From Onthophagus taurus (taxonomy: Eukaryota; Arthropoda; Insecta; Coleoptera; Scarabaeidae), in contig NC_091966.1 in the NCBI RefSeq assembly GCF_036711975.1, positions 9,803,501 through 9,867,500 on the forward strand: a stretch of 64,000 nucleotides of DNA. The letters run 5' to 3'. Below the pieces are notes generated by a model, which was not told the DNA's origin, did not search any database, and worked only from the letters and a program-made list of their open reading frames with translations. Each line of letters opens with the position of its first letter. Position 1 is the first letter of the stretch. Below are positions 6,236-31,722 of the stretch, in pieces. The position numbers were made by a program, and so were the translations under genes.

Positions 6236-6637
6236 TTATACATGTAATTGCCTAAATTTTAAAACTTTTAATCTAATAAGTATTTTTTTTACCTTTCGCA
6301 AGATGAACAGTGCCCATTTTACAACTAAAAACGTTTAAAAATAAAATTCAACTGGAAACCGATAATTACAATTAAATTTCTCAAGCGTTGTTGATAAACG
6401 AGGTTATCTTCCACTTGCAAAAAAAATGTGTCATTCATTACCATAAAATCCAATTAAAAAATGTAAACAACAAACGTTAGCCGCTTTCATTTTTACATAA
6501 CTCGTTTAGAAACAAATAACATGATAAGCATAAATTTAGAAACGAAAGAGCGGAATAATTTAAAAAAATAGGCAAAGGCCTACATTTCAAAAGTAGAAAA
6601 AAAAACTTGTCTGAGCATGCGCTAAAAATTTGGCAAA
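6236..6637. other. No gene seen (ATF4 upstream region)
   Basis: A/T-rich sequence lacking ORFs or recognisable repeats, leading into the presumed distal promoter of the ATF4 gene. Confidence 0.4.
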
Positions 6638-6672
6638 ATCACGTGACCCGTATCATCATCGCCGCCATCTTT
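6638..6672 (+). promoter_or_regulatory. ATF4 distal promoter elements (E-box, YY1-like)
   Basis: TCACGTGAC (6638-6646) is a canonical E-box/CLEAR-type site for bHLH-Zip factors. GCCGCCATCTTT (6661-6672) contains the reverse complement of the YY1 core AAGATGGCGGC typical of housekeeping promoters, followed by a pyrimidine-rich stretch. No TATA box is evident. The transcription start is inferred to be close to this pyrimidine tract. Confidence 0.55.
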
Positions 6673-6688
6673 CACTTTTCTCTTACCC

Positions 6689-6700
6689 ATGTGTCGATAA
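6689..6700 (+). promoter_or_regulatory. uORF1 of ATF4 (Met-Cys-Arg-stop)
   Basis: ATG TGT CGA TAA: a three-codon upstream ORF. In mammalian ATF4 a 3-codon uORF1 is translated and lets ribosomes resume scanning, which is the permissive element of integrated stress response control. Its conservation in length and order supports the same role here. If transcription begins near 6674, it lies very close to the cap. Confidence 0.65.
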
Positions 6701-6740
6701 AGGTGTTTGGTTTCCTCGTATCCGCAATAACGCCGTGAAG

Positions 6741-6752
6741 ATGCTGTTCTAG
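6741..6752 (+). promoter_or_regulatory. Second 3-codon uORF of ATF4 (Met-Leu-Phe-stop)
   Basis: ATG CTG TTC TAG, with a strong -3 purine (AAGATG). It is a second tiny uORF 40 nt after the first, before the long overlapping uORF. It probably acts as a further reinitiation-permissive element. Confidence 0.65.
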
Positions 6753-7469
6753 CACGCTTAGGAAACTTGCACACGCAAGTGTGCCTTCACAAATCACACA
6801 AAATGCTGTAAGTAATCAATTTTTCGCATGTCATCGTTTTCTTTAAGTTTTATAAGGGGGTCAATACTTTTCACGTTATACTCGCCATGTTTAAAAGAGA
6901 ACGGTTTTTGAGTCTACCTACATTATTGTGATTGCGTCATGCATTTTTTTATGATTCAACTTCATTTCATGTCAAATTTTTGGTTATGTTTGTAGTTTTT
7001 TTTTGAATGAAAATGACATAAATACTTATTATGGTTTGATGATGTTTTTGTAAAGGAGTTTTGAGGGGGAAATTGTGGCATATGTTTGATTTTATAATCA
7101 GTTATCTAAACATAACAAAGTTAAAAATAACAGTTCTTAATCGGAAAGAAGCAATCTATGTTAAAATTACAAAAAGAGCGGTTTTCATGATGGCAAATCA
7201 CCTTAGAGTAATCGAAAGGGTTTTTGGGGAATGAGTCATAACTGTGACGTCTTGTTTATCAATGAAAATGTTTAATATTGCTAATTGTTATCTTATATTT
7301 GCCTAAAATTATGGTGTCAGGTATTTTTTTAATCAATTTTTATTATCGATAGGATATTAATTAAATAAAGGAAATTAAGATATTGTTAATTAAGTGAAGT
7401 TATAAAAAATACAATGTCGGCTTTCAAGATATAACTTTGAACTTGTGATTAAATTTGTTTTGACTTCAC

Positions 7470-12238: not shown

Positions 12239-12354
12239 TGCCATCATGGCGTCCCCACAACGTGCCGCATTCATACCGGCAAACGTAATCATCTCCACCC
12301 CCAAGAACCAACAACTTTCCTTCAGTTATCCTGGCATCATCGGCAATCGTACCA

Positions 12355-15300
12355 ATGGAAGATTCGCCGGTGCTGATAATGGAGTGGAAGGAAGAGCCGC
12401 TGTCGCCCATCTTTGCTGATGAGCTGACGGCTGTTCCTTCCGACGAAGACGCGCGATTTTATTGGACCGAATCATCGGAGCAGTGTGATGTCGAAAAAAA
12501 CAGCTTACAGTATGCCGAAATATTGCTCGGCAACGCTCCAGCGATCGCCGCACAACGGAACTCTTCTTCTACCAAAGCGGAGCCCATTGATGACTCGTTA
12601 TTGCAAAATTTGGAGGAGCTTGAAGATCTATCAGAATGGATAATTGAAGGTAAGATGAAGTTAATGTGGTTGCATACATTTTAATGTTGGATTGGTTGCA
12701 TATAGTTAGTGTTAAATATTTAAAAGTGATATTTTTTTAATCAAGAACTGACCTAAGATTAATTAGTTGACAATAAATACCATGATTTTCGTTTACGATA
12801 AATTTAAAATTCTAATGTTGTTTACTCGAAATGTAAATTATCGATTGTGAGTAATTGAAAAAAAAATGCACGTCTGGACCAAATACATAGATAGCAATCA
12901 AGAGGGTCGTATAGGTGTGCACATCTAGAAAAAAAATACATTCGCTTTTCATTGTAATGAGTTTTTTTTTTATTGTAATTAATTCGTCTGGAGAAAAAAA
13001 AACAGGAGAAACCCAATGATAAAGAAAATGTTTACGAATTAACTTTGTTTTCCTATTAAATTATAATCAAGTGGGAAATGGGGAATCATTCAATTTTTTC
13101 CTATTAGTGTGGGTTACCAGTTCAAAGATAAATACAATGAACAGTTACGCAGTAAACAAAATGAAGATACATAGATTAGCAAATTCCAAAGTGCGTGCAT
13201 GCAAGGATCAAAATAAAATCGACTTATCTATTAAGAAATGCGAGTGAAATAATTTAGTTTTGAATTGCATTAACGACTTATACTACAAGTAAAATCTTAT
13301 AATGCTACTCAGAATACCAAATAATGAAGAAATTCAATCCAAAAAATGTTTGAAGTTGTGTAGGGTTAAAATTTTCGAAACTTCCAGGTGTTGTGATTCT
13401 AAAAATTGTGTAAAACCGTTATTTAAAAAGCGGAAATTATGTATTGAATATTTGATATAACGTTTATTATATGTGTATTGTGATTCAATCAAAAATAAGA
13501 AAAATAAACTTCTTCAATAACAAAGAAATAGATATAGTTAATCTTGACATTCTTGTTTTGTTTTTCTTTGATACTTTGTTAATTCTGAAATATCAACATG
13601 AATAATAGCACATTTTTTGTAACAAATGATAAATAATAATTTGACAGTTGCAGCCAGTATGAACACTTTCTTTAAATAATATTTATTTCGAATGGTAACT
13701 AACACATTAAAAATGTTTTACAACAATTGACAAATTCTAATATCGATGATAATCTATTAGTTTACAATCTGGAGTTGTAATAATTTATATTCACCCATAT
13801 TATGCGACGGAAGTTGTCATATTGTACTGCCACGAATATGTTATTCTGTGAAGGTCACTTCTTCACGTTCATTCGTTATTAGTGCGCAATTGGAAGCTGT
13901 TTCAGAAAAATAAATAGAGATATAGAAATGAGTTCTTTTCGCGTTATTCAGAATGACTTTAGATAATTTTTGAAAATATGTATTATATCTTATTTGTATG
14001 TTATTAGTTTTTTATATGCCATTTATAGATAAACATACCTTATAAAATTTGTGGAAAAGTTTGGTAGACGTATCAAATGTATGCAAAAATGTATGACGAA
14101 CTGTTATCAGATCCATAAAAAAGAAAGGATTTTATGAGAGTTAATCGAAGATGACATCAGTTAATTATATTAATCAACTTTCGTGTTGATATACCAAGAG
14201 TGAACAACGTTATGGCAGGAAAATGAACCCAATTTACTTACTTTAATTGACCGTGATGACATTTTCTTCGCAGCTAAAACATTTGTGATGCTGTGATTTT
14301 GCGAGCGAATAAAAATTTCTTTGCAAAGTCGCGAAATATTGACGATAGGTTTTGCACCTTCGCCCATATTAAAGGATTATTTTATACTTCTTTATACAGT
14401 CCGTTTCATAACTAAGGAGTTTTGGTGAACGTATTTTAAAAATTTGGTAATAAGTTGGTATAGATAAGTACTGTAGGAATTACGAACCTAAAAGGTTTTT
14501 CTTCAATATCTAATAACTTGCATTGTCTAACAGACTTATATTTAACTAAATTAAATCTAATAGAATCAAACAGGGAAAATAGAAGAATAAAATTTCTCTC
14601 TACTAGTAGACTCACCCCAACTTTGCACTCTATGCAGCTCTGTACATATTAAACATAATGCTTTTTCTTCAATATTGGTAAAAAAAAGTATATTTCCGTC
14701 TTCTTTTATTAAATATCAGGCAGTCCAAAACAATTTTTTACTTTCGTGATACATTTCAATCGATCAATAGAATTAATTATTTCGTACTCTTTTTTTCAAG
14801 ATTGAATAAGCCCTGAACAGTCCCATATATATCATAAGACCTAAAATATTAACCAGCCGGGGTGCCACGCAGATCATTAAGAAAATTTTAGTAAAGACTT
14901 GAAGATGTTCCCTTAGAAAGTGCGAATAAATCATGTCTAACATGCGCTCATGGTGTTCTGAATAAAGTAAAAACCATTCAAAATGTCCTGAAAAGAGACT
15001 AAAAGAATGCCACTGATATTTTCAAAATGATGAAATTGTATGTCCAAATAAACATGAAAACAAAATGCATTAGTTTTCTTTGTTTAATTTCAGTGGTATA
15101 GCTTAGACCTACCTTTTATCGTCAACTAAGAACTGCTAACTGATTGTAGCGCATTTATTGAACTAACGTGGTTCTAGAAACACATTAGGTTCTAAATCTA
15201 GGTGAAAGTACTTCGCGGGCTGGATAAAATATGTAGTTAGGTCGTGGGTTAAGCATCACTGCCCTAGTGGATAAAGGTCTATAGTTATACCGTGTACAAT

Positions 15301-18300
15301 AAACTTAATAATAAAAGCTCCATGGATTATTTCCGACAGTGTGAAACCAGAAACATAAAACATTTTCTTTTGTATGTCTCAACTGAATCGAAAAAGAACC
15401 ACGTTATTCCAAGAATAAGATCAAAGACTTATCCAGGCTCTCAAGAAGTTTCAATAAAGAAACGAAATATTGGCGATGATGAATTAGTTCATATAATTTT
15501 TCCTTCATCCTATTTCTAGAACAACAACGAGGTTCCTTTTCGATTGAGTGGAGATATAGAAAAGAATTTTTTTTATTTTTCTGGGTTTTCTCTGCCGGGA
15601 ATAATCCTTTGAGCTACTAACAGGATCGAACAAGTTTCTCCTTTTTAGATTTTAATCAATAATTATAAAAGTGTACTACGTTTAAGTAGTAATGTGATGT
15701 AAGTATATTTAGGGGTAATAGAAAAAATATTTGTTCATAAGCATGGGTTCTAATCATAAACGTCACCATACCTTGTGTATGGATTTCAGTAAAATATCTG
15801 GTTCGGTATCGTTCGTTGGGTTATTTGGCTATCATTACCACCTAAGGAATGCATTTACTTTGTTACACCTGTATAAGGATGTATGTATTCATACAATACT
15901 TTGCGTAAAAAGTACCCTTCATCACCTTGGATTGATTCTGATCTGTTATTACACTACTTTCTTGCATATTATAGGATGATGTACCAATAGGGATTTACGT
16001 TAGAAATGTTTCGGGTAAATTTACTTACGTATACTGATCTTCAAATATGCCCAAATCATCCAGTTCAATATCGATATCACACGTACGTATCGATACGTCT
16101 TCAAATATCTAGGTTTATTTGAATTATTCCACTAGTCTCATTCAGCATTGTATTATAAAACAACAGCTTTATTGAAAACTACCTTAACCAGTTATAGATT
16201 AAATATGAGCGAGATTCATTTCTATTAACTATCTTGGGATAAGGTTGTCGAACACTCTTTCCGCTGCTTAGACGCCCTGCAGGTTGCCTTGACAGTGACC
16301 ATTCCTAGCTGTCTTGACTAATCTGTTGTTATCCATCTTGCATAAATCGTCGTTCAAAATCTTCTTCTTGTCCGCATCCATCACACTACATCCATCAACA
16401 GATTTGTATTGCAACCTTAGCCAATTTGAACAATTTTGTATTACAATTTTAGTCTTTCGGTTGTTTCTATTTCTTTTGACTTCTGTCCAAGCGGCGATAG
16501 ATTAGTTCACATTTTCCTTATCTTGGAAACATTTCAGTGCTTTTGTCTAAAATTATTTTTTTGTTTTTGGATGTTATACAAATTACCTTTTGTAACAATT
16601 AAGATCCAGTTAGAAATTAAGTTTGTTAGCAACAGCAATGGAATAAGGAGATAAGTAAGTTTATCAAAAAGAAGAACGTTTCGTGTCACAAGTTCATTAA
16701 AAAGTGGTTTATTTCGGTAACAATTTTTTCCAAATTTTATCAAAGATAACGTGACCTAAATAAAATTACAAGAAGAAATAGGTGCACAGTTTGTCATCGA
16801 TATTGGAAAATGTAATAAAAGCTAAGATAGCAAATCGTGTACAACTTTATGAATAATTTCCATTAATGCAGTAACATGTGTGTGCCTATCTTTATTTGCG
16901 ATTCAAAATGTTTTTAAAATTTTCCACTGAGACGGTAGCGCCAATGTGATCTGAGCGGTGCAACCTCGAAGGACAAACGCGACGGCCACGATGGAGTAGG
17001 AGAAGGAGAAAATTATACTTTGACGGCGTTCTCCATGACAAAACGATCAGTAGCAAGTTGTAATTCGCGAATCGCGTTGCGTTCGGGAAATTTAAATCAA
17101 AAAATAATCTAGCTGAGAAGCAACAGCTAAGAATTAAGCTTTTGTTTTGAAACCCGTGACACTGTTTTTTGATCGAAGACGCCATCCGCCGCTGAACACA
17201 CCGTGTTCTCGATGCATATCCGTGCAAATGTGCGGCACCGTATGCGTGTTTAGCATGAAGTTCAACTATCATTACACCTGGAACCGCGAAATCGTGTTCA
17301 ATTCGCAGAAACTAGTGAAAAGACGTTGAGATCGATATTTCTTTTCAATTTGGATTTTTCGTCGTCGACCACAAGCAATAATTATAAAAGAATACTAGAC
17401 GTTTTTTTTATTTAAGAAATAAGACTGCGTAGAATAGGAAGTTATCTTTTTCTTTTTTTGTACCAACACTAGATAGAGATTATTAATAACAATCATAATA
17501 GGTAAAGACCTTATTTTTTGAGACTCTTGGGTTTTGTTGAATCGAAATTAATAAGAAAACGAAAGGGAAAGACGACCTTCGATTTGTAAAGTGAAGATAT
17601 GGCTGCTGCGTGTTATGGTATGTTTATTTAAAAAGAAATCTGAAATATATATATTTTTTTTATTCAAAATTTATGACTGGAGAATTTGTTTATACAAAGT
17701 GTTAAAATAAATAAATGTTTTAAACGAATGAGTTTCGTATTAGGGTACGCCATCTATAATATGTTATTAGAAGTAGTTTTTAGGTTGGCACAAGTTTGGC
17801 GGTTAGTCGTTAGAATGTTGAGGTTAAAAAGATCGTTAAGACCAAGTTAAGATGACACGCAGTTAATGAGTATTTTAGTCAAGTTTAGTGCCGTATGAGT
17901 TTTATAAAGAAGTGTGTATGCTTTATGTTAAACAATAAATAGTTCTTCAGTTATCAACAAATACTTTATTAAAGTAACATTAATAAAAAACCAACAGGTT
18001 ATGGGCCCAGGCCGGCTAAATTAAAAATTGAAAGTAAAATAACAAGTAAAACGTTCTGGTTAAAGAAATTAATAAAACATGGCTGAAGAACTGGTAAATA
18101 TAGAAATGTTAAAAGACACATACAACTTCGATATGTGGAAATTTCAAGTAACAATATTTTTGAAAGCAAAGGAACTGTACAACGTAGTTACCGGAGAAGA
18201 AAATCGTCCCGAAAGTGATGAAAAAAAAAACGCATGGGATAAAAAGGATGCAGCAGCTCAAAAGCTGATAATAACAACTGTAGACAGGTCAATCGTGGCA

Positions 18301-21300
18301 CATTTATTAAATTGTAAAACGTCTAAGGAAATGTATGATAAGTTATGCATAATTTTTGAACAAGATACGGAACATCAAAAATATGGACTATTACAAGAAT
18401 TTTATAATTATCAATATAAAAAAGGAAGTAACATGACACAGCATATTTCTAATTTGGAAAATCTAGCACATAAGTTAAAATTATTAAAACAAGAGGTTAA
18501 CGAAACAATGATAATAACTAAAATTTTATCAACATTGCCGGTAACATACAAACATTTTGTTAGTGCATGGGAATCGACGCCTAAAACCGAACGAAATTTA
18601 ACAAACTTAACTGCTCGTTTATTGTGTGAAGAAAATAGAAATGAAACCGAAGAAAAAAATGAAGAACAAGTAGCGTTTAAAGCTAATGATACAACAAAGA
18701 AAAATTCTTATTTAATGAATAAAACTTGTTTCAAATGTAATAAAAAGGGGCATTTAAAAAGGGACTGTAAAAAGGCTGAATTTAAATGTATCATATGTAA
18801 GAAAAATAATCATCAGTCGAAAGATTGCTATTTTAGGAATAAAAATAATAAGAACAAACAAGACGTAACATTTTTAACAGAAGTTCAAAGTGGAGAAAAT
18901 TCAAAAAAAGGTAAATGGATTGTTGATTCAGGAGCAACAGCACACATGTCAAATGTGGAAGGTATGTTTGAAGAAATAATTAAGAAAAATACAGAAATTG
19001 GAACCGCTAAACAAAACGAAAAAATGACAGCACAAGGAACTGGAAATATTACAACAGGATGTTGTACATTAAAAGATGTTGTATATGTTCCGGATTTGAG
19101 TAAAAACCTTTTATCGGTAAATAAAATTACAGAAAATGGAGGAACAGTAATATTTGAAGCTGAAAAGGTAGAGGTATACAAAAATAAAAACATGATTTTA
19201 GAAGGTAAGAAGAATGAAAAAGGATTATATGAAATTGAAATATTAAGAAAGAAGGAAGAAGTTCATTCGGCAACAACGTACAACGACAAAATGGATTGGC
19301 ACAGAAGGTTAGGGCACCTTGGTGTGGACAACATGAAAAGATTACAAGGGATGAGTGAAGGTTTGAATTTAAAGCCACAGGATTTTGATATTCTAAAAAA
19401 CACATTCTGTGAAGTGTGTGTTAAAGCGAAACACACGAGGAATCCATTTAATGAAGTACGGCAAAGAGCAACTCGGCCACTAGAAATAATCCATACGGAT
19501 ATTTGTGGACCAATAGATCCAATAACATTTGACGGAATGAAGTATTTTATTACGTTTTTAGATGATTTTACTCATTTTGCGACGGTATACTTATTGAAAG
19601 GTAAATTTGAAGCCACAGAAGCGATTAAAGAATATGTAAATCAATCCGAAGCAAAATGGAATATAAAAACAAGTAAAATAAGATGTGATAATGGAAAAGA
19701 ATATGTAAACAACGATTTAAAAACGTGGGCAAAGAAAAGAGGTATATTCATGGATTACACAATTCCCCACACACCACAGTTAAACGGTAAAGCGGAGAGA
19801 TTAAATAGGACAATTCTAGAAAAGGCAAGATCCATGATTTTCGAAACAAACGTAAACAAAGAGTTATGGGGAGAAGCCGTAAGAGTCGCAGCATATCTCT
19901 TAAACAGATCACCAACTGTCAATGAGAATAAAACACCATATGAGTTATGGACAGATGTAAAACCTAACTTGGGAAATATACAGATTTTTGGAGTGAATGC
20001 TTATGCAAAGAGATTGGGATATCAAAAAAAATTGGATGAACGAAGCGAAAAATACTTATTCATTGGATACTCATCAAATGGGTATAGATTGTACGATGAA
20101 GGGAAAAGAATGGTTGTGATATCTAGAGATGTAAAATTTGTAAACAATAAGAAAAACTGGACACTACAAGATTTTGGTGAAGATAAAACAGATGGAGAAG
20201 AGATAAATGACATAACAGAAGAAGATATTGATGAAAAGGAAGAAGAAAACACAGATATAATAGAAAAAGCAAGAAATACAGAAGAGACCACTAATAATGA
20301 AGAAACAAAAAAGGAAAATGAAGAAGAAAAAGAAGAAAGAAAACAACGAAACAGAAGACCACCAGAGAAATTAAAAGATTATGTTTATTTATCATATGAA
20401 GAGGCGATTCAAGGAGAGGATAGCATTAACTGGAAGAAAGCGATAGAAGAAGAAAAAAAATCGCTTGAGGAAAATGATGTCTGGACTTTAGTAAATAAAG
20501 AAGGTAATGAAAGAAAAAAGATATTATCAAACCGATGGGTATTTAAAATTAAAGATGATGGAGTGTACAAAGCCCGATTGGTTGTTAGAGGTTGCGAACA
20601 AAAATTTGGTACAGTTTTTGAAGAAAATTATAGTCCAGTCATTGGTGATAGTGCAACAAGATTAATTTTTGCAGTAGCAGCACAAAGAAATTATAAAATG
20701 GTGAAGTTTGACATAAAAACTGCATTTCTTTATGGAAAATTAACAGAGGAGGTCTATATGCAAATTCCCCAAGGATATGAAAAAGAAAATAAAATATGTA
20801 AACTAAATCGTGCCTTATATGGGTTGAAACAGGCTCCATCAAAATGGAACGAAAGATTTACAGGATTTCTTAGAAATATTGGTCTAAAAACAATTCAATC
20901 GGAAAGATGTATTTTCAAAACGGAAGATAATAAAGTGATACTAATAATTTATGTAGATGATGGATTAATTATTGGTGAAAACTTAACTAAAATTAAAACT
21001 ATTTTAATGAACTTAAAAGACGAATTCAAAACCAAAGTGTGGGAAAATCCGGACTCATTTTTAAGTGTGTCGATTAAAAGAAGTGAAACATTATTGACTT
21101 TACATCAAACTGATTCAATTGGAGACCTTTTAAATAAATTTAATATGAATGAAACACGTGCAACAAAAATTCCTTTGAATAAAAGTGACATAATTAATAA
21201 ACAAAGTGAAAAAAAAGAGGAAGAAAATAAAAATTATCCATATCGTGAAGCAGTGGGAAGTTTACTATATATAATGAAAAAGACTAGACCAGATTTGGCT

Positions 21301-24300
21301 TTCGCGGTAAACTTTGCGAGTCGTTATTTAAATACCCAAACCAAAAATGACATTAATAATGTAAAACATATTTTAAAATATTTAAGTGGACACACAAATT
21401 ATGGTATAAAATACGATATAAACTCCAACTGTAACGAAATAATAGCTTACAGTGACTCGGACTATGCAGGTGACACCGAATCAAGAAAAAGTACAACAGG
21501 CTACATCATATTTTTCAATGGAGGACCTATCAGCTGGGTTACCAGAAAACAACCAATAGTAGCTCTGTCGACAACAGAAGCTGAGTTTATAGCTGCCGCG
21601 GATTGTTGTAAAGAGTTGATCTATTTAAAAACTTTGTTACAGGAACTGTTGAATTTAGAAATTAAGGCAACATTAAAAGTTGACAATAAAAGTGCCATTA
21701 CATTAATTAAAAATGGAATAATGAATAGAAAGAGTAAGCATATTGACGTGCGTTACCATTTTATTATAGAAAAAGTTAATGAGGGTATAATTAAAATAGA
21801 CTATGTAAATACAAATGATCAATATGCTGATATATTTACGAAACCACTTGATTATGTTAAATTTAGAAAGTTAAGAGATAGTTTCATGTATAATGTGAAC
21901 GAAATGCAAACTCTTTCGTTTAAGGAGAAGATGTTAAAATAAATAAATGTTTTAAACGAATGAGTTTCGTATTAGGGTACGCCATCTATAATATGTTATT
22001 AGAAGTAGTTTTTAGGTTGGCACAAGTTTGGCGGTTAGTCGTTAGAATGTTGAGGTTAAAAAGATCGTTAAGACCAAGTTAAGATGACACGCAGTTAATG
22101 AGTATTTTAGTCAAGTTTAGTGCCGTATGAGTTTTATAAAGAAGTGTGTATGCTTTATGTTAAACAATAAATAGTTCTTCAGTTATCAACAAATACTTTA
22201 TTAAAGTAACATTAATAAAAAACCAACACAAAGATTGTTAATCACGCTCTCATTTATTAATAAGTCTTTGATAAGAAAAAGAAATGTTTAAAAAAAAACT
22301 GGTCCATGTATTTGCAATAAACATACAAGATTGCATTAGACACTCACTCAACCTCTTGGTCGATACATTACCATTCCTTCCGTTGTAATAAACAGTTTAT
22401 GAATGTTTATGAATCAAGGTGTTCTAACGTTTTGTAATTATCATGAAAATCGATATAAAAACAAGGCTTACTAATATTCACTAAAAATAGTGAACAGGAT
22501 AGAACAGGATTTTTCTTATAATAGATTTGTGATATTAAAAAAAACTCACTCTGCCAAAAGGAAGAAAAAAACAGTTATAAACAGTTTCTAAACAAATTTA
22601 GAAATAGACTTTTGAACCGCATGAGAGAAACGAAAAATCAAAGACGAATCGTATATTTTAATTTTTACAAACTCGTCCTCGTCCTGGTTTCTCTTCTATG
22701 TTTGCTCAGGGTCCAATTTCTTGATTCGTTATCATACAAATGGTAGCAGGCGAAAAATCAAAGACAATTATTGTAGAGTGAAAATAGCGCCATCGATTTG
22801 CGCTCATAGTTTTCATCGTTAATCGAGTCTGGAGGCTGTGATTCTTCGAGTTCTTGGGGTCACGCTCTTTGTATATTGCCTTCTCCGCCGGGAAGATAAA
22901 GTTAAATGCATATCTTTCAATACGTTGAACCGTCGGTGAATTAACTATGCGTCAACCGGTTATATCTGAAATATTTTTGGATATAGGCGTTGGAGTTTTT
23001 TCTGTCAACATGGAGTTTAGTCCAAAGTCCAACTTGTTGGTGTCGTGAAAAATATTCACCTGGTCTAAAAAGGATTAGATGTATTTTTTAACTTTTGTAA
23101 TACTATCTTGAAAAACTTTTACGTATATTAACATATTTTTAGATCATAGACACAAGAAAAGCTATATTATCTATAGTAGTATTGAAATTAAGAACAAAGG
23201 ATTCATTAATTTATTCGCTTATTTCAAAAATTAAAAATAGAGTTATAGTAGTTAATGGGGGTTGAAATTGACTGGGCCATCATCTCTTCTATGTATTACC
23301 TTCTAACTCTAGCTTGCATCTTCGTGGTTCTCTAGATATCATTAATATTTTGTTTTTTTTTTTTTATGGAAATCCTCATATTGTATTTTGTTGATGTTTT
23401 GCAACATTTATGGAGGAACTTTTGGAGATCATCTTTGTTTTTTACGCAGCACATTATGTTAATGTTGTGATTTCATGGAAAACCAAGATTTCCTCAGTGA
23501 CATCGTTGGTGCTTTAATCTTTGCTTTATTGTCTGTAAGTCTAAAAAGACTTTTCTAGAATTCATTATATCGAGTACATCCTTTAATTTGACTCTATCAT
23601 AAGCTGTTATTTAGGTTGATGAAACACACGTGCCCTGGGCAAATGAATTCTATTGTAGTTCTATTCCGTCGGATTCCCTACTGTACGTCCAGAATTTCTA
23701 TCATTGCCTGGAGTTTTTAATATATAAGCGTGGTATTTAATAATGTATTTAGAAAGGGATATAAAAAGAAACCAGATAACTATAGAGGTATTTCTTTTTA
23801 TCTCACTTTTTAAACGTTGGGATTGTAATGTTTCCGAAATTTACAAATTCATCATAACTTCTTTAAACTTATTTAAAATCTTGTGTTCTGCGTAAGCTAT
23901 AAACCAGTGGTGTCCACTAATTTTTGATCAACATCGACTTTTTATATAAATGTCTTGGCAAAGATCGACCGAAGGGTTTCAAATCTTTTTTTTACATTTT
24001 AAAAGTAACTTTTTTTTTCGACTCAAAACGGCTTAATTTGAAACCCCTTACAAAATTTATTGTTTTTTCATTTTTTGTTTATTCAACTCTGACTACTTAT
24101 TTCCTTCTTGTTTATCTTTTAACATATTTGTTTTATTTTATTTTGTTTTATTATTTCAACATTCATCTTAGATAACATTTTTTTGTACTTGTTGTGTCAA
24201 TAAATTTGTTTTGATGTCTCTAAAGTGAGTAATGTAGAGAAGAACTGTAAAAAATTCTGATTATAATTCTTAACATATTGAGACCTATCACAAATTAATG

Positions 24301-27300
24301 GATCCAGTTTCAGCGCCCAATAAATAATATAGTTCGTTTTTTTTCTATAATACTTGTCAATGTAAATTTTTTAGGGTTTCTGTTGGTATTATCTAGGACC
24401 CTTATAAAATTTATGTTGTTTTCCTGATTTTTAGTAACATTTTCATTGACTAAATAGTTAAGGTTAAAATACTAATAAATTTTTAGATTAATACGATTTT
24501 AACGAAATACATATTTATTGTAAAAACGTGTTACAAAGTAATTAAATAGAACAAAACACCTTTTCTAGGTAAATAAATGGCAAATAAACACCCCACAACA
24601 TTTTTATGCACCTTTTCTTTTTAAATAACGAAAACTCAAACGTCAGTGTAACATATCTATTTCAAAATATGATAAAACAAAACTCCCTGTTAATTTTGCC
24701 AACTTTACAACAATTTCATAGGTATTATAGAAAAAAAAATGAAGTATAGTTTAATCACATCTATAACAATAACCTCGAAAATGACTTACTTACAGCTTAT
24801 CACACCGGTGATGCCACCGATTTTAATATATTATTATTTTCTTCATGGTTTTTGAGAAAAAGAATCCAAAAATTTTGCGTTGTAATTTTCAGTATGTCAG
24901 CTAGGAGATTGGAAGAGTAAAAATACTTTATGTAGTTAATTCCCGAACTACTATCAGTTTCTTAATTTTTGTAGTTTTTTTCCCAAATTATAAATATTAC
25001 ATTAGATGACCAAAGAGAACATTCAATTTCCTGAATTTGCTGACTTGATGGCATAAAATGAAATCTTATCATACCTCTCTCTGTAATTTAAAAAGTAATA
25101 AGATAACTTTATTCTTCTGCAAATCTTTTATTTTTATAACCTCAACAAAATATAATTAATTAATTAAAAAAAAGAAATATAAAACTGCACATGGGATAGA
25201 AACCGGTACATCAAGTACATTAAGATATCGAGATATTCGCTCAGCAGCTGTGGGTTACTTTAAGTATAATAACTCGTTCAATCTCTTAACCGATTTACTG
25301 AAAAATTCTGAACTAGGAATGTTTCTCTCAATTTCTGAATGCCAACGATAACTATAGAATATTTTAGCCTTCCTTATCACAAAAAAATCATTAAAATTTG
25401 CCGTGAGTCGTGGTTATACTTATTAAATTACACCTTCGAAGTAAGGAAAAATTTAATGTGTTAATTGAACTAAAATTAGAACTAACACTACAAGCTTTCG
25501 AGTTTTGCTGTGCGTCTTTTAAGAAAAAGTTTGACGTTTCGGATGCCATGTTGCAACCTTCTTCAAAAATTGTGACTGGAAATAGTGACTGGTTCACTTC
25601 GAACCAGTTCGAAACGTCAAACTTTTTCTTAAAAGACGCACGGCAAAACCCGAAAGCTTCTAGTGTTAGTTCTAATTTTAGTTCAAGGAAAAATTTCTTA
25701 TCAATAATGATGCAACTAATGGCACAGGTGAAATTAGTTGAATTGTCAAAATCTTTATACATATCTAATTAATATCATGTCAAATACAAATATTAAACAA
25801 CAATTGTTTGTTCTTTTTTAAGATAGGACTTTAATTGTCGAAGTTTTATGCAGGGTGAGTTTTTTTGCCATGTTTAGTATGGAGATCTCTAAAACTAGCT
25901 GAGATAGAGAGACGATTAAATAGGGAAAGAATTGCAGTTTCATGAACTCAATTTAATGAGCTTTTTGTTTTTCGGATGAAATGCATGGTTAACTAGATAT
26001 CTCGAAAAAACTGTTTTTTTGTTATATCGTTCGATACCTATGCCTCCGCTATTATTGATTTTAGGAAAAATGTGTAAAGGAAAAATTTGTAGGGTATTAC
26101 ATGTGTATTTGATTTTACATGTATTTCATATTGATTACAATTTACACAGCCTTAATCAACGTTAATTAGAAACTAAACGAAACATACGTTTGCCTTAAGC
26201 TGTCATAATCAAACGTATCTATCAATTGTTTCCATAGCATACTACCTGAACAGTTTGCTAATTAAAAGAATAAATGTCTATAATTTATTTATTAATAAAA
26301 ATATCCATGTCAAGTGGTATATCATTAGAATCGTTGAGAAAAGGCCTTTTTCATAAAGTCATGGCCAATTATGGTTTCCATTAGAAAAATTATAAGTTTG
26401 TGTCATACCTCTAACATTATTGCTTAAATAAAAAAATCAGTTAGACTGCTTTATTAAACATGTAAGTAATACCCTACAAATTTTTCTTTTACACATTTTT
26501 CCTAAAATCAATAATATCGGAGTCATAGGTATCTAACGATATAACAAAAAAACGGTTTTTTCGATATATCTAGTTAGCCATGCATTTTATCCAAAAAACA
26601 AAAAGCTTATTAAATTGAGTTCATGAAACTGCAATTCTTTCCCTATTTAATCGTCTTTCTATCTCCGCTAGTTTTCAAGATCTATATACTAAACATTGAA
26701 AAAAACTCACCCTGTATTTGTGCGTAATAAGACATACTTAACTTACTGCCACTTTTACCACCTCTTAGGCCCAGTTTATTCACCTTTGCTTACATTTAAC
26801 TACTGGGTTACCATGGTTACTGGAAACATTTCACATGCCATGATTGGCTATTTGACCAGTAACTATGGTAAATATCCGATAGTTAAATTTAACCAAAGGT
26901 GAATAAACTGGGTGTTAATAAATTTATCTGATAGATAAATCCAGCTCATAACCAATACGAGCTCTAGATAGTTTATCAGACGGATGGTAAAAGTAGGCCT
27001 TACACTGACAATGAAATATTACAACTGTTGACAATGTTGAAAGTCATCTAGGTTCATGTCCAACCACAATTTTCCGATGGCTCTTCTGGATGTAAGACTC
27101 AATCAACGAACTTGATTCTATCCATGATTTAACGATATTGATTTTTCCAATGCTTTTGATGTGTATTTCATAGATTGGCATTGACATTTCTCAACATTTG
27201 CAAAAGAAGTATCAATTCATGAAGATCAATCACGTATTTTCACGTTCTTTGCCAATACCATTTAGTGTACTATAAGGCAGTACTCTTATCCCTACATTTT

Positions 27301-30300
27301 CAACAATTCACTTAATTATTTACTAAGCAGAATGTTGAAAGAGGACTCAATTCCTTGTTCCACCTTATCTCAGTGATTTAGTATACTTCCTTGTGTTTGA
27401 TTGCTCTAAATTTGAGCAGATTTCTCAATACTTACGCCATGCTGAATGCTTATTTATGGAAAGCTGGCAGTTAATGCATTAACCACTACAGGTTATACAA
27501 GTTGCGGCAGAACAAATTAAGCAATTTTCAGGGCCGGATATTCGTGTAGGTTGGTGGTTGTAATCTCATCCTGTTCTGTTGATCACCTTATTTAGTATCC
27601 AATATGGTTTGGAAACCAACCGTCGAAATGTATGTAAGCAAATACTGTAATACTTAGTAGAGGTGAAGTGCGTTTTTACCTCACTGGGGCTGTGAATAAA
27701 CAAAATTTTCACTACTGGGCTGAATTTAACCCCAACATTTTTCACGAAAGATCGCTAAATTCCCTAAATTGTGAGCGAAAATTCGAAATTCACTGACAGT
27801 TATCGGCCATTCTCATTCAACAAATTTTCCATAATTTGAATATAACGTTATGAATAAAAATGTAAAATTTAGAATACGTATTAAGTCTGATATTGATCAA
27901 ACTTCGTAAAACAATCTCTTCAATAATAAAGTTAATTCCATAATTTTGATTTAGCTTATCACATTTTTTTTATGTTATAAGTCCCAAGGCCATTGTTATT
28001 TTATTGTGCGCCTATTAAAATAGTGACGACTTTTTTCATTTTAAGGTGACTTCATCTGATTTATGTAAATACAGATATGCAGAAGTAACTGTGCAGGGCG
28101 TGAATGATCAATCAAGATCAATGACAACCATCGTTACCAGCGTTTTCTCGGTGGCGCAAAATTCCGGCCCACCCATCACAAAATCAAGAAAATGGCTGCG
28201 ATGATTTTTGTAGCAGCGGTTTTCTGCTGACCCTTCTTGAGTAGTTAATGTTGGTTTTGATGATTTCGGAGCGCCTCGATCCTGAAAATCTTCTCATCAC
28301 TGATGAGAACTTTTGAGAAACGAGCATCAGCGATCATGCAAATCATTCGGCGAAAATTTTCCAATCTTTTTAGCTTGAAATCGTTGAGGAAGTGGAGACG
28401 ATCTGACCATGTTCCAAGTGCTACCGATAATGACGCCAAGCTTCCTTTTCCTGATCAAACGCTCCGTCTTGCATTAAACGCAACAACATAGTTTCTGCAC
28501 ATTCTTTGGAGTCGTGGCAGTGATTGGACGCTCCTCAGTTCCTCCAGTCTTCTTGACAATTTGTTTCTTACGATGTCGATCATTTTCATTCTCGATTTGT
28601 ACAGCTATTTATATGTATTCCCTTCAATGTTAACTTTCTTTCATATTTTTGTAGAATTCCTCATTTTAAAACAAGAAAGTATTTAGAACGCTATATGTAT
28701 TTATGCGTGGTTAATTAGCTATATTGATTAGGAAATTGGTCTGAAAATCCTAAACCTACTGCGTTATTTTCTAGGATTTCTTGATCGAAATCAATAAAAA
28801 CCAATTAAAGGGGATTTAAAAAGTTTCAGATAACCGATTTCTTGTTAACAAAATAATCACAAATTTGTGGAATTGAAATGTTTCGTATAATTGATCTATT
28901 TAAGAAAGTGGGAAATCCCAAGGAATTTTTCTGGTGTATTTCGTTTAATTTTGCCGTTAACAAATATCAATAGAAACAAATTCATCTCAGCATTTACAGA
29001 AATTTTATGAACTTATGATAACTTACGATTATCAATCAAGCAATGAAAAATAAGAATCTTCTCAGAATTTTGCGCGATAACGTTAGTAAATAATTTCAAA
29101 ATTAATAATCGTCCTAAATAAACAAAAATTTCGAAATAACACGCTATTTAAGAAATAAAGAAAGAAAAAAATCCGTGTGGTACTGACCACAGTGAAAGTC
29201 CTTCGCAAAAGATAAAAAATAAAACAAAAAAAAACTCGATTATAGAGAACGAGTCCAAAGTCCGCGACTATAAGGTTATGAATTTAAATTCCTAAAATTA
29301 CTCACAGTTGTTGAAACTAGGTAGTTTTTAGATAATATAATTGATGCTGAATTAAAAATTATTGCATTTAATACAAAATTATTTATGTTTATGAATTTTA
29401 GCAAAAAATTCAATAATTTTTTTTACTGATGCAAGAACTATAAGAGAAATCCGATTTTGAATGTAGAGTTTCGTAAGTTATTGAGAATTTAAGTGGATTC
29501 AAAAATTATTGGTTCCCCACTTCTCCATTTTGAATGAATTTCAGTAAGGTCGCGCAAAAATAATATACGATACTTTCACTTGAGCAAAATTCTTCTAACA
29601 CTAAAAACTCCAATTCAAACTATTAAACAAAATACTAGAAAGCAAATATTTTTTTGTACTAAACACTTAAACACTATCCTGTTTAAACTACGACATAATA
29701 ATTACACCTTATAGTCATACATATTTAAGTAAAATTCTTTATGTCTAGACAAAAAGAATATTAAGTAAAAAACAGGTTTTCCTTTCAAGTTTACATAAAC
29801 CAAGAGCTTTCCCGTTAACTCCTTCTCTAGTAAGTAGTAATATAAAAATAGAAAAATCACGGGCTCACAGAGTGATACTTTATACTATACACCCATTTTC
29901 TTTTTTTTAAAACGTCTTAATATATTCAGAGACCGCGCTTTTCTTGGCCGGTACGTCCTTGGCAAGTGGACAATTGTCGCACAAACCAAACCCGTCGTGT
30001 AATTGACAGCTTGTTCCACTAACTGGAACAACTATATTGGAATCTATAAACCATTTAAAGAGGATTTAATTCGAAATCGTATCAATAAAATATTTTCTTT
30101 TGTTGAATAAATCCCATAATTATGACCTTCATATATTTGATATATAAATTACCATTACTCACATAGTCAATTTATCCTAGATAATTTAAAAAAGCCTTTT
30201 TTATATAAAATAAAAATACAAATAAGTGAAATTCCCCTAACTCAAATCATTAAGGGACCGGAAGAATATTTACAGCTAGGGAGAATTCAAGTTAGAGCAA

Positions 30301-31722
30301 AATTAGTTGAATTTCAGTTCTAAAGAAAAAAACGAGAAATGTACTTTTCTAATAGGAATATTCTTTAACCTTCTAGTACAAGCGCCTATTACAGTCACAC
30401 GCGGCGGACTGTAAGTTCGCAATTGCCAATAGGAACAATCAACGGGCAAAAAATGGCGTTAGTTAGAAGTTCATAGGCTCAAATATTTGCGGGACAACTA
30501 AAACTCGAAATAACACTAGCACTAGAACTAACACTATACCTAGAATCATTTGGGTTTAGCCACACGTCTCTAAAGACGGCTAAACCCGAATGATTCTAGT
30601 TCTAGGTATAGTGTTAATTCTAGTTTTACACTTGCACTGTGACTAGAACTAGAAATATTCGGGTTTAGCCGTACGTCTCATAAGACGGCTAAAGCCGAAT
30701 GATTCTGGTTCTTGGTCTAGTGTTAGTTCTACTTTTAGTTCAATAAAAATATACAACAATCTAACGCTGCATAACAATTAAAACTAGAACTAACACTAGA
30801 CCTAGAACTAGAAAGTTAACTAGAATATTTCTAGTTCTATGTGTCCTAGCTAAAACTAGAGCTATCACTAGTAGCACTAGTGTCAGTTCTAGAGTTAATA
30901 TTAGTTCTAGTTTTAATTATTGTTATTCATTGCTAGAATGATTACATAAAAATATCACTTATATAATTATTATTTCTTTTCCTATTTTATTAAAACTGAA
31001 ATAAAAAACGTTTAATTTAATTTTCAGAGTCTAGCTTCCCATGGTTGGAAGATCAGATCGGTTTTACAAGCATAGAACAAAAATACGCAACAGAAGACTT
31101 ACTACAAGAGTTCGAAAATGTATTGGAAGCGGTAAATCCAGGAGCGTTAACACCACCGCAAAGCCCCCCGCGCGAACCACAACCACCACCAATCCTAACC
31201 ACCCTCGAGCCAATAACTGTCGGCCAAATCTACCCGGTTTATACGACCACAGCTCAAAAACTCGATGATTGTCCAAAAACTCCTCAAACTATCGCACACG
31301 AATTGGCAGTTGTTGATGAATTAGTTAGAGCGAGAGCAAATGATATTTTGTGTGAATCACCGCCATCTCCGAGTACAAGTAATTCAGGAAGTTTCGATGA
31401 TTCTTCGTCGTCGTCTGAAGATCCGGAGTGGATTCCGGAAACTGTAATCGAATCGGAAAAGTCGTCCGCTAGACGCAGATATAAGCCGTATAAAATTTCA
31501 CCGGTTGATAAGAAAAATCGGAAAAAGGAGCAAAATAAAAACGCGGCGACTAGGTATCGATTGAAGAAGAAGGCGGAGGTTGAGGAGATTTTGAATGAGG
31601 AGAAGGGCGTGTTAAAGGAAAACGAAGATTTGACGAGTAAAATCAGCGATCTTCAAAGGGAAATTCGCTACTTAAAGGGGCTTATGCGCGACCTTTTCAA
31701 AGCTAAAGGAATTATTCAATAA
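12355..31722 (+). CDS. ATF4: ATF4 / cryptocephal bZIP transcription factor
   Basis: Join 12355-12649 and 31028-31722, giving 329 residues, close to ATF4's usual 350-380. This nuclear activator of amino-acid, redox and ER-stress genes dimerises and binds CARE/CRE sites. Exon 2 (12239-12649, donor GTAAGA, phase 1) encodes an acidic N-terminus (MEDSPVLIMEWKEEPLSP). Exon 3 (acceptor TTTTCAG at 31027) starts ESSFPWLEDQIGF. A Pro-rich middle follows, then a Ser/Asp-rich segment near residues 210-235. The basic region (KKEQNKNAATRYR, about residues 258-280) precedes a leucine zipper to about residue 320. No canonical DSGxxS degron is evident, though a related SGSFDDS occurs. The start is ATG 12355, the frame overlapped by the inhibitory uORF. 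The 18.4-kb intron hosts a copia element. Confidence 0.93.
12650..17340. other. ATF4 intron 2, first part
   Basis: Mostly A/T-rich sequence without a supported exon. Around 14845-15275 the strings AACCAGCCGGGGTGCCACG and (minus) CAGTGATGCTTAACCCACG resemble hAT-type element ends, which is weak. At 16910-17340 composition becomes clearly GC-richer and CpG-containing, just upstream of the alternative promoter. That block could be an enhancer, a remote exon or a promoter domain. ORFs there (both strands) show no known domain. Confidence 0.4.
17383..17390 (+). promoter_or_regulatory. TATA box of candidate alternative ATF4 promoter
   Basis: TATAAAAG, a near-consensus TATA element, 209 bp upstream of the alternative start codon. 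Initiation about 30 bp downstream would give a leader of roughly 185 nt with no ATG at all up to 17599. Function is inferred from position and composition only. Confidence 0.55.
17599..31722 (+). CDS. ATF4: Alternative short ATF4 isoform (first exon 17599-17617)
   Basis: Join 17599-17617 and 31028-31722. A mini-exon ATG GCT GCT GCG TGT TAT G ends at a good donor GTATGT (17618). Its phase (1) is identical to that of exon 2, so splicing to 31028 gives MAAACYE followed by SSFPWLEDQIGF in frame: 237 residues with the complete bZIP but without the acidic first 98 residues. The predicted leader from the TATA box to this ATG contains no upstream ATG, so this form should escape uORF control. Supported by frame, splice site, TATA box and start context (GATATGG); not by transcript data. 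Confidence 0.55.
17700..17996 (+). repeat. 5' LTR of copia element
   Basis: 297 bp, TG...CA bounded, identical to 21932-22228. It carries TATAAA at 17903-17908 and AATAAA at 17934-17939, implying a short R region. It starts 82 bp after the donor of the alternative ATF4 first exon. Confidence 0.95.
18079..21942 (+). CDS. Copia gag-pol polyprotein
   Basis: 1287 residues, one open frame from ATG 18079. Order is copia type: Gag (1-200), a zinc knuckle CX2CX4HX4C at about 217-230 and a second at about 237-250, aspartic protease (VDSGATAHM, catalytic Asp about 283), integrase with HHCC (His about 408) and DDE core ending in the NGKAERLNRT region, reverse transcriptase (FDIKTAFLYG; YVDD at 958-961), then RNase H (YSDSDYAGD about 1126 and DIFTKP near the end). 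Integrase precedes reverse transcriptase, diagnostic of Ty1/copia rather than gypsy. All catalytic residues appear intact. Long Glu/Lys-rich segments connect integrase and reverse transcriptase. Confidence 0.97.
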   Translation: MAEELVNIEMLKDTYNFDMWKFQVTIFLKAKELYNVVTGEENRPESDEKKNAWDKKDAAAQKLIITTVDRSIVAHLLNCKTSKEMYDKLCIIFEQDTEHQKYGLLQEFYNYQYKKGSNMTQHISNLENLAHKLKLLKQEVNETMIITKILSTLPVTYKHFVSAWESTPKTERNLTNLTARLLCEENRNETEEKNEEQVAFKANDTTKKNSYLMNKTCFKCNKKGHLKRDCKKAEFKCIICKKNNHQSKDCYFRNKNNKNKQDVTFLTEVQSGENSKKGKWIVDSGATAHMSNVEGMFEEIIKKNTEIGTAKQNEKMTAQGTGNITTGCCTLKDVVYVPDLSKNLLSVNKITENGGTVIFEAEKVEVYKNKNMILEGKKNEKGLYEIEILRKKEEVHSATTYNDKMDWHRRLGHLGVDNMKRLQGMSEGLNLKPQDFDILKNTFCEVCVKAKHTRNPFNEVRQRATRPLEIIHTDICGPIDPITFDGMKYFITFLDDFTHFATVYLLKGKFEATEAIKEYVNQSEAKWNIKTSKIRCDNGKEYVNNDLKTWAKKRGIFMDYTIPHTPQLNGKAERLNRTILEKARSMIFETNVNKELWGEAVRVAAYLLNRSPTVNENKTPYELWTDVKPNLGNIQIFGVNAYAKRLGYQKKLDERSEKYLFIGYSSNGYRLYDEGKRMVVISRDVKFVNNKKNWTLQDFGEDKTDGEEINDITEEDIDEKEEENTDIIEKARNTEETTNNEETKKENEEEKEERKQRNRRPPEKLKDYVYLSYEEAIQGEDSINWKKAIEEEKKSLEENDVWTLVNKEGNERKKILSNRWVFKIKDDGVYKARLVVRGCEQKFGTVFEENYSPVIGDSATRLIFAVAAQRNYKMVKFDIKTAFLYGKLTEEVYMQIPQGYEKENKICKLNRALYGLKQAPSKWNERFTGFLRNIGLKTIQSERCIFKTEDNKVILIIYVDDGLIIGENLTKIKTILMNLKDEFKTKVWENPDSFLSVSIKRSETLLTLHQTDSIGDLLNKFNMNETRATKIPLNKSDIINKQSEKKEEENKNYPYREAVGSLLYIMKKTRPDLAFAVNFASRYLNTQTKNDINNVKHILKYLSGHTNYGIKYDINSNCNEIIAYSDSDYAGDTESRKSTTGYIIFFNGGPISWVTRKQPIVALSTTEAEFIAAADCCKELIYLKTLLQELLNLEIKATLKVDNKSAITLIKNGIMNRKSKHIDVRYHFIIEKVNEGIIKIDYVNTNDQYADIFTKPLDYVKFRKLRDSFMYNVNEMQTLSFKEKMLK
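21932..22228 (+). repeat. 3' LTR of copia element
   Basis: Identical to the 5' LTR. The last codons of the polyprotein (ATG TTA AAA TAA, stop at 21940-21942) read into the LTR, so ORF and LTR overlap by 11 bp. Confidence 0.95.
22234..23735. other. ATF4 intron 2, no gene seen
   Basis: A GC-richer block at about 22780-22960 (GCGCCATCGATTTGCGCTCA and following) has the look of a repeat or old UTR, but I cannot assign it. The rest is A/T-rich without coding potential. Confidence 0.35.
23738..23815 (+). mobile_element. LINE reverse transcriptase motif fragment
   Basis: Plus-strand codons give FRKGYKKKPDNYRGISFYLT, matching the reverse transcriptase motif KKGDxxxPxNYRGISLL of many LINEs. Only about 25 residues are recognisable before frames break down. 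Confidence 0.6.
23905..24010 (+). mobile_element. hAT-type element end (solo)
   Basis: CAGTGGTGTCCAC (23905) followed by GATCAACATCGAC and GATCGACC is typical of the outer end of hAT-superfamily elements. The opposite end was not found within 1 kb, so the extent is unknown. Confidence 0.45.
24180..25442. other. ATF4 intron 2, no gene seen
   Basis: Very A/T-rich sequence with no motifs that I can support. Confidence 0.4.
25443..25696. repeat. Palindromic repeat with about 77-bp arms, 12-bp flanking direct repeat
   Basis: Arms run from 25465 (TTGAACTAAAATTAGAAC) to about 25542 and from about 25610 to 25686, complementary with few mismatches; they share GTTTGACGTTTC near the loop and GTTAGTTCTAATTTTAG at the outside. 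The loop holds a perfect mini-hairpin ACTGGTTC/GAACCAGT. The 12-mer AAGGAAAAATTT occurs at 25443-25454 and 25685-25696, possibly a target duplication. The overlapping ORFs on both strands (25391-25772) mirror each other because of the palindrome and are not genes. Confidence 0.8.
25851..26714. mobile_element. Long-TIR foldback element C (864 bp, 250-bp TIRs)
   Basis: Terminal inverted repeats at 25851-26100 and 26466-26714 align over their whole length with scattered mismatches; tips are CAGGGTGAGTTTTTTT. Flanks are TG (left) and TA (right), consistent with a mutated TA duplication. The 365-bp core has no ORF, so it is a non-autonomous Tc1/mariner-like element or foldback. Confidence 0.85.
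26766..26916. mobile_element. MITE, about 150 bp, nearly full palindrome
   Basis: CCCAGTTTATTCACCTTTG at 26770 is repeated inverted at 26894-26912, and the complementarity continues inward (TTTAACTA... and TTACCATGGTTACTGG against ATAGTTACTGG). TA dinucleotides flank it. It is inserted in another repeat (26743-26765 plus 26917-27000) that matches 7470-7535. Confidence 0.8.
27001..28085. other. ATF4 intron 2, no gene seen
   Basis: Unremarkable A/T-rich sequence; no supported exon or named repeat. Confidence 0.35.
28090..28570 (-). mobile_element. Mariner-family transposase pseudogene
   Basis: Minus-strand translation gives, in order, an RHRKK...VKKTGGTEERP N-terminal block, then KRLENFRRMI, then VLISDEKIFRIEA...NHQNQ. 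The last holds the first catalytic Asp of mariner-type (maT/DD41D-like) transposases. Frameshifts and stops separate the blocks and the C-terminal half is only dimly readable (28090-28240). No TIRs were identified. Confidence 0.75.
28571..30480. other. ATF4 intron 2, no gene seen
   Basis: A/T-rich. Near 29885-29995 a short GC-richer segment (GACCGCGC, then GGCCGGTACGTCC) stands out but has no frame that I can assign. The second copy of the 7560-type repeat is at 30410-30475. Confidence 0.35.
30521..30926. repeat. Cluster of three hairpin repeats just before ATF4 exon 3
   Basis: Three adjacent palindromes: 30521-30624, 30641-30723 and 30771-30926. The first two share a stem tip of type GGGTTTAGCC...GGCTAAACCC around an ACGTCT/AGACGG loop. 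All share outer arms built of CTAGAACTAACACTAG units. The palindrome at 25465-25686 has the same outer unit (GTTAGTTCTA). They lie 100-500 bp upstream of the exon 3 acceptor. Confidence 0.8.

Follow-up and report, generated by a model that had tools for sequence, protein, structure and literature searches.

A candidate alternative 5′-terminal exon in intron 2 of the ATF4 gene of Onthophagus taurus

The ATF4 gene of the beetle Onthophagus taurus lies in a stretch of 64,000 nucleotides (contig NC_091966.1, positions 9,803,501 to 9,867,500), which was analysed as a whole and is called the window here. For intron 2 of this gene, a first-pass annotation had proposed a second promoter with its own first exon, free of upstream open reading frames (uORFs). 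ATF4 output is usually viewed as set by its uORFs. Judged from its sequence, the gene in the window is a canonical insect-type ATF4 and an orthologue of cryptocephal. The bZIP domain of exon 3 matched Pfam bZIP_1 (E 1.3e-10), and an ATF-4 chain, 1ci6_A, was the sole PDB match at E ≤0.01 (E 4.3e-09). The splice sites of the gene, including the exon 1–exon 2 join, were predicted from the sequence and from its match to the insect ATF4 leader, which gave the following canonical structure.

~6650–6807, plus strand: predicted exon 1, 5′ end approximate and limits inferred from sequence; donor GTAAGT at 6808
6689–6700, plus strand: upstream uORF, MCR and stop, in the weak context CCC ATG T
6741–6752, plus strand: uORF1, MLF and stop
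12239–12649, plus strand: predicted exon 2, ending in phase 1; remainder of uORF2, main ATG at 12355, donor GTAAGA at 12650
31028–31722, plus strand: predicted exon 3, with the bZIP domain and the stop codon

The 3′ end of exon 1 is ATG CT, and its join to 12239 opens uORF2 (MLAIMASPQ..., 61 codons), which has a second in-frame ATG at 12246 in a strong context and stops at 12417–12419. As in the paired uORFs typical of ATF4, uORF2 overlaps the main open reading frame and carries a second in-frame AUG. The normal join of 12355–12649 to 31028 yields a protein of 329 amino acids. For the ATF4 mRNAs of Tribolium and other insects, Hiraishi and colleagues have described a weak-context uORF, a short uORF1 and an overlapping uORF2 with a second in-frame AUG (PMC4176352). 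According to the same source, the permissive type of uORF1 codes for 2 or 3 amino acids, and an extra uORF is described for arthropod ATF4. The weak-context uORF, the short uORF1 and the overlapping uORF2 were all found here between 6689 and 12419. Unlike the leader proposed below, none of the insect ATF4 leaders in the available part of that paper is described as lacking uORFs. No Rfam match reached the gathering score across 6000–32400.

The part of intron 2 in question contains the following features.

16920–17340, strand not assigned: GC/CpG-rich block, candidate promoter or enhancer; GC 0.449, 34 CpG
17212, 17228, 17242 and 17255 (17212–17329), plus strand: four ATGs, which would be uORFs of 13, 33, 3 and 24 codons if transcription starts inside the GC-rich block
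17383–17390, plus strand: candidate TATA box TATAAAAG
17413–17598, plus strand: candidate uORF-free leader if the TATA box is used; start position inferred
17471–17472, plus strand: acceptor-like AG, pyrimidine-rich, which would make 17473–17617 an internal exon
17599–17617, plus strand: candidate mini coding exon MAAACY(E), phase 1, start context AGATATGG
17618–17623, plus strand: donor GTATGT, score 4.03, the highest in 16850–17700
17700–22228, plus strand: copia-type long terminal repeat (LTR) retrotransposon, sense to ATF4, with two identical 297-nt LTRs
22630–23050, strand not assigned: second GC-richer block; 22601–23050 was searched and is single-copy and CpG-rich
25848–25855, plus strand: competing ATG CAG G followed by GTGAGT (donor 7.35), same phase, poor start context

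The TATAAAAG box named in the first-pass annotation was present at 17383–17390 and was followed by no ATG before 17599. The ATG-free run exceeds the length of more than 200 nt given there, the previous ATG being located at 17255 and the run measuring 343 nt. The reading ATG GCT GCT GCG TGT TAT G followed by GTATGT was confirmed at 17599–17617 and 17618, and the start codon has a good context with G at −3 and G at +4. Mini-exon and exon 2 both end in phase 1, as had been stated. The join of 17617 to 31028 reads MAAACYESSFPW... and remains open for 237 codons with no stop, which bears out the claimed in-frame connection to the bZIP exon. In exon 3, the sole in-frame Met stands at position 318 of the 329 residues. 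A short form bearing the bZIP domain therefore needs a start codon of the kind present in the mini-exon.

Donor scores in 16850–17700 were 4.03 at 17618 and 2.87 at 16878, followed by 0.62 and 0.22. By the same matrix, the canonical donors of exon 1 and exon 2 scored 2.83 and 6.06; this matrix was not trained on this genome, and the core-promoter elements treated below were sought as consensus strings. The region 16900–17640 is single-copy, with one match, itself, in the 291-Mb genome. A transposon origin of the candidate exon was ruled out by this search, which passes over simple repeats and words of very high frequency. No processed retrocopy carrying the junction was found when the short protein was compared with the whole genome, the two matches being exon 3 itself and a distant bZIP stretch. 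In a scan of viral contigs for ATF4, none of the 15 pattern matches was confirmed. Among telomere-type repeats, a single short TTAGG array and no TCAGG were found, which does not settle the insect order.

We suggest that 17599–17617 may be the coding tip of an alternative 5′-terminal ATF4 exon with an intronic promoter, spliced from 17618 to 31028. This is the best single reading of the single-copy GC/CpG-rich surroundings, the top local donor, the splice phase and the start context, and we hold it tentatively, as somewhat less than an even chance. To this extent the alternative promoter and first exon of the first-pass annotation stand; freedom from uORFs holds conditionally, and the further roles given to the product are unsupported. 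In the scheme that we infer for promoter activity, splicing and translation, the promoter would lie within the GC-rich block or immediately below it (16920–17400), and splicing from 17618 to 31028 would connect the mini-exon to exon 3. Such an mRNA would not contain the canonical leader formed by exons 1 and 2 and hence none of its three uORFs. The predicted product is an ATF4 of 237 amino acids, compared with 329 for the long form, in which MAAACY replaces residues 1–98 and the bZIP domain is intact.

Several findings, in this and the next three paragraphs, count against such an exon. The ATG and the donor may have come together by chance in an AT-rich intron, the GC-rich block serving the main ATF4 promoter as an enhancer or another kind of regulatory element, and this combined explanation is not far from an even chance. 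Chance expectations were derived from 20 × 10 kb of the same genome, taken at hand-picked places and on both strands (400,000 strand-bases); expectations for the intron refer to 13.8 kb, i.e. intron 2 minus the copia element. The strict set of features required a good start context, no ATG within at least the preceding 100 nt, and a phase-1 donor of at least 4.03. It occurred nowhere in the sample and once in intron 2, which argues against coincidence. An earlier count, which covered both strands of sample and window (528,000 strand-bases), gave the strict set once, as the candidate itself; when the context rule was dropped there were three cases, two of them with TATAAA. With the context rule kept and a minimum donor score of 3.0 or 2.8, the sample contained two or three cases, corresponding to 0.07 or 0.10 expected in the intron. 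Omission of the context rule at a donor score of 4.03 gave nine cases (0.31 expected per intron), and 18 were obtained when 50 nt ATG-free sufficed (0.62 expected). This looser pattern is present twice in intron 2, and the other copy, at 25848, has the stronger donor. The bare core pattern of an ATG, a short open stretch and a phase-1 donor, expected 0.3–0.6 times per such intron and seen twice, is thus unsurprising. The full set is surprising, though its criteria were chosen post hoc, with the candidate already known. Intron 2 has eight donors of at least 3.5 outside the copia element, two of them with an in-frame ATG, and against coincidence it also tells that the top donor of 16850–17700 stands directly after a start codon. 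The ATG and donor at 25848 border on an inverted repeat of 253 nt (25861–26113/26453–26705).

The sequence upstream of the mini-exon was evaluated in the same sample. ATG-to-ATG gaps as long as 343 nt made up 0.32% (about 23) of 7159. TATAAA-type motifs are common, and coincidence is favoured by the presence of TATAAA 60–330 nt upstream of 27% of the sampled ATGs (1853 of 6971); at this distance the complete TATAAAAG was found for 155 of them (2.2%). Genome-wide, both strands together contain 38,426 copies of TATAAAAG, roughly half the number found for its reversed control (70,074). No recognisable initiator was detected about 30 nt downstream of the TATA box at 17383, nor was a downstream promoter element (DPE) found with it. 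The donor-like site at 16878 scores like the canonical exon 1 donor, and the mini-exon donor is therefore the best but not the sole conceivable one in this region.

The GC-rich block at 16920–17340 is uncommon in composition, its GC and CpG values being reached together in six of 920 half-overlapping sampled windows (GC alone in 17, CpG alone in 11). The canonical promoter/exon 1 region (6500–6920), however, has a GC content of only 0.375 and 20 CpG. As the canonical promoter region is less GC-rich, a high GC content is not established as a mark of promoters here, and this is in line with an enhancer. The window contains 34 merged stretches with at least 9 CpG per 200 nt. At least 17 CpG per 200 nt were found in six stretches, three of which overlap exon 2, exon 3 or an open frame at 40129–41052. 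An enhancer is further favoured by the additional single-copy GC-richer block in the same intron (22601–23050), located about 0.45 kb below the mini-exon once the length of the copia element is subtracted. This block and the one at 16920–17340 may belong to a single regulatory cluster, or both may just be enhancers. A GC-rich stretch of intron 2 at 28001–28600 is a dispersed repeat with 48 matches including itself; the 47 further genome matches have 66–92% identity, and a cluster of short matches lies on contig C3 near 21.95 Mb. Just before exon 3, at 30601–30930, a CTAGTTCTAG-like unit was seen by eye to recur in a run of degenerate copies.

Finally, a recent copia insertion begins 82 nt below the mini-exon. 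The element is flanked by a 5-bp duplication, CAAAG, at 17695–17699 and 22229–22233, contains an open frame of 1288 codons and has AATAAA in its LTR. A genome search with the LTR listed 12 matches, 10 of them full-length at 96–100%, and these 10 include the element's own two. The full-length matches at 96–100% indicate a young family.

The position of the transcriptional start decides how far the label 'uORF-free' applies to the candidate exon. A transcript that begins near 17413 would not include the three canonical uORFs. The absence of ATGs from the new leader depends on the start site, the leader being ATG-free for any unspliced start below 17257 and not for a start above 17212. The label is conditional because the TATA box has no initiator and the only TCAGT-type initiator, at 17047, adds four upstream ATGs. 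The exon could thus be real but transcribed from a more upstream start inside the GC-rich block (17047, for instance), so that the short form would be uORF-gated or made via re-initiation. We regard this variant, which is included in the chance given to the exon as a whole, as unlikely. In its favour, the TCAGT at 17047 is the sole such initiator in 16850–17620 (it has no DPE), and no donor scoring above 0.62 is available from there to the mini-exon for splicing out the four ATGs, whose frames end by 17329. On the other hand, the 343-nt ATG desert opens just past the last of these ATGs, as expected for a uORF-poor leader below 17257. Moreover, a start above 16878 combined with splicing from 16878 to the acceptor-like sites 17417 or 17473 would also remove all four. 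If the exon is real, it is somewhat more likely than not that transcription starts below 17257, in which case there would be no upstream ATG and the short form would be made without eIF2alpha phosphorylation.

The acceptor-like AG at 17471–17472 allows a different use of the same sequence, namely as an internal exon (17473–17617) included in transcripts from the main promoter. With 15 of 20 pyrimidines before 17473, this site exceeds the acceptors of exon 2 (14) and exon 3 (10) in the same count; such acceptor-like sites, however, arise by chance about 1.3 times per kb of strand, and we consider an internal exon improbable. Joining of exon 1, 17473–17617 and exon 3 would place the uORFs MCR, MLF and ML before the same 237-amino acid form, which would then be made by re-initiation. 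If exon 2 were joined to 17473, the long form would stop at 102 amino acids.

With regard to the function of the candidate short form, the first-pass annotation had described it as constitutively translatable and as a possible competitor of the long form. Neither 'constitutive' nor 'competitor' found measurable support. The lost residues 1–98 comprise 24 acidic and five basic residues, and residues 99–250, which the short form would keep, are still acidic (26 acidic versus 10 basic). A role as competitor is speculative, and the short form might likewise be a weak activator. In Drosophila CRC, the EcR-B2-binding surface lies in the C-terminal three-quarters of the protein and the leucine zipper is required, according to the part of the report available (PMC3415445). 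If the layout of Drosophila CRC holds here, the short form would keep the EcR-B2-binding part. One could further imagine a two-promoter switch, in which a uORF-gated full-length activator is accompanied by an ungated short bZIP form made from the intronic promoter. By occupying ATF4 sites or partners while cells are unstressed, the short form would determine the threshold at which the integrated stress response sets in, and the young copia element just below the exon would now be altering the balance; we give this scheme little credence. If the exon is real, a transcript that keeps the bZIP domain and lacks the uORFs would permit a basal, stress-independent form of ATF4, and reporters and knockdowns aimed at the common exon would become harder to interpret.

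A uORF-free short ATF4 from insects was not described in the titles or abstract openings among the literature matches listed, a search with most subscription journals outside its scope, and a short ATF4 is not mentioned in the available parts of PMC7495428, PMC12816580 and PMC6946401. For the pea aphid, three highly homologous ATF4 sequences in GenBank have been noted (PMC13132143, in part). A silkworm ATFC cDNA is reported to code for about 236 amino acids, which was given no weight here. The closest parallels come from Drosophila. As far as the accessible text of PMC8938396 goes, at least four splice variants of crc exist, with differences in both the leader and the coding exons, and a tag exon within an intron is predicted for every isoform but crc-RB. 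Like the candidate described here, crc is thus a single ATF4 gene whose isoforms diverge in these exons. The lack of the tag exon in crc-RB is what would be expected if this isoform had a first exon of its own further downstream, a comparison made by isoform layout and not by sequence. A second parallel is the bZIP stress gene Xrp1. According to the portion available of PMC8514241, two uORFs are predicted for its long isoforms F and G, and the program detected none in the short isoforms D and E. This is the same split into gated and ungated forms as proposed here for ATF4. Xrp1 is, however, a different gene with annotated isoforms and predicted uORFs, whereas the ATF4 short form was deduced by inspection of the sequence. 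Taken by analogy, the candidate alternative start in intron 2 is a plausible case of an isoform layout already reported in flies.
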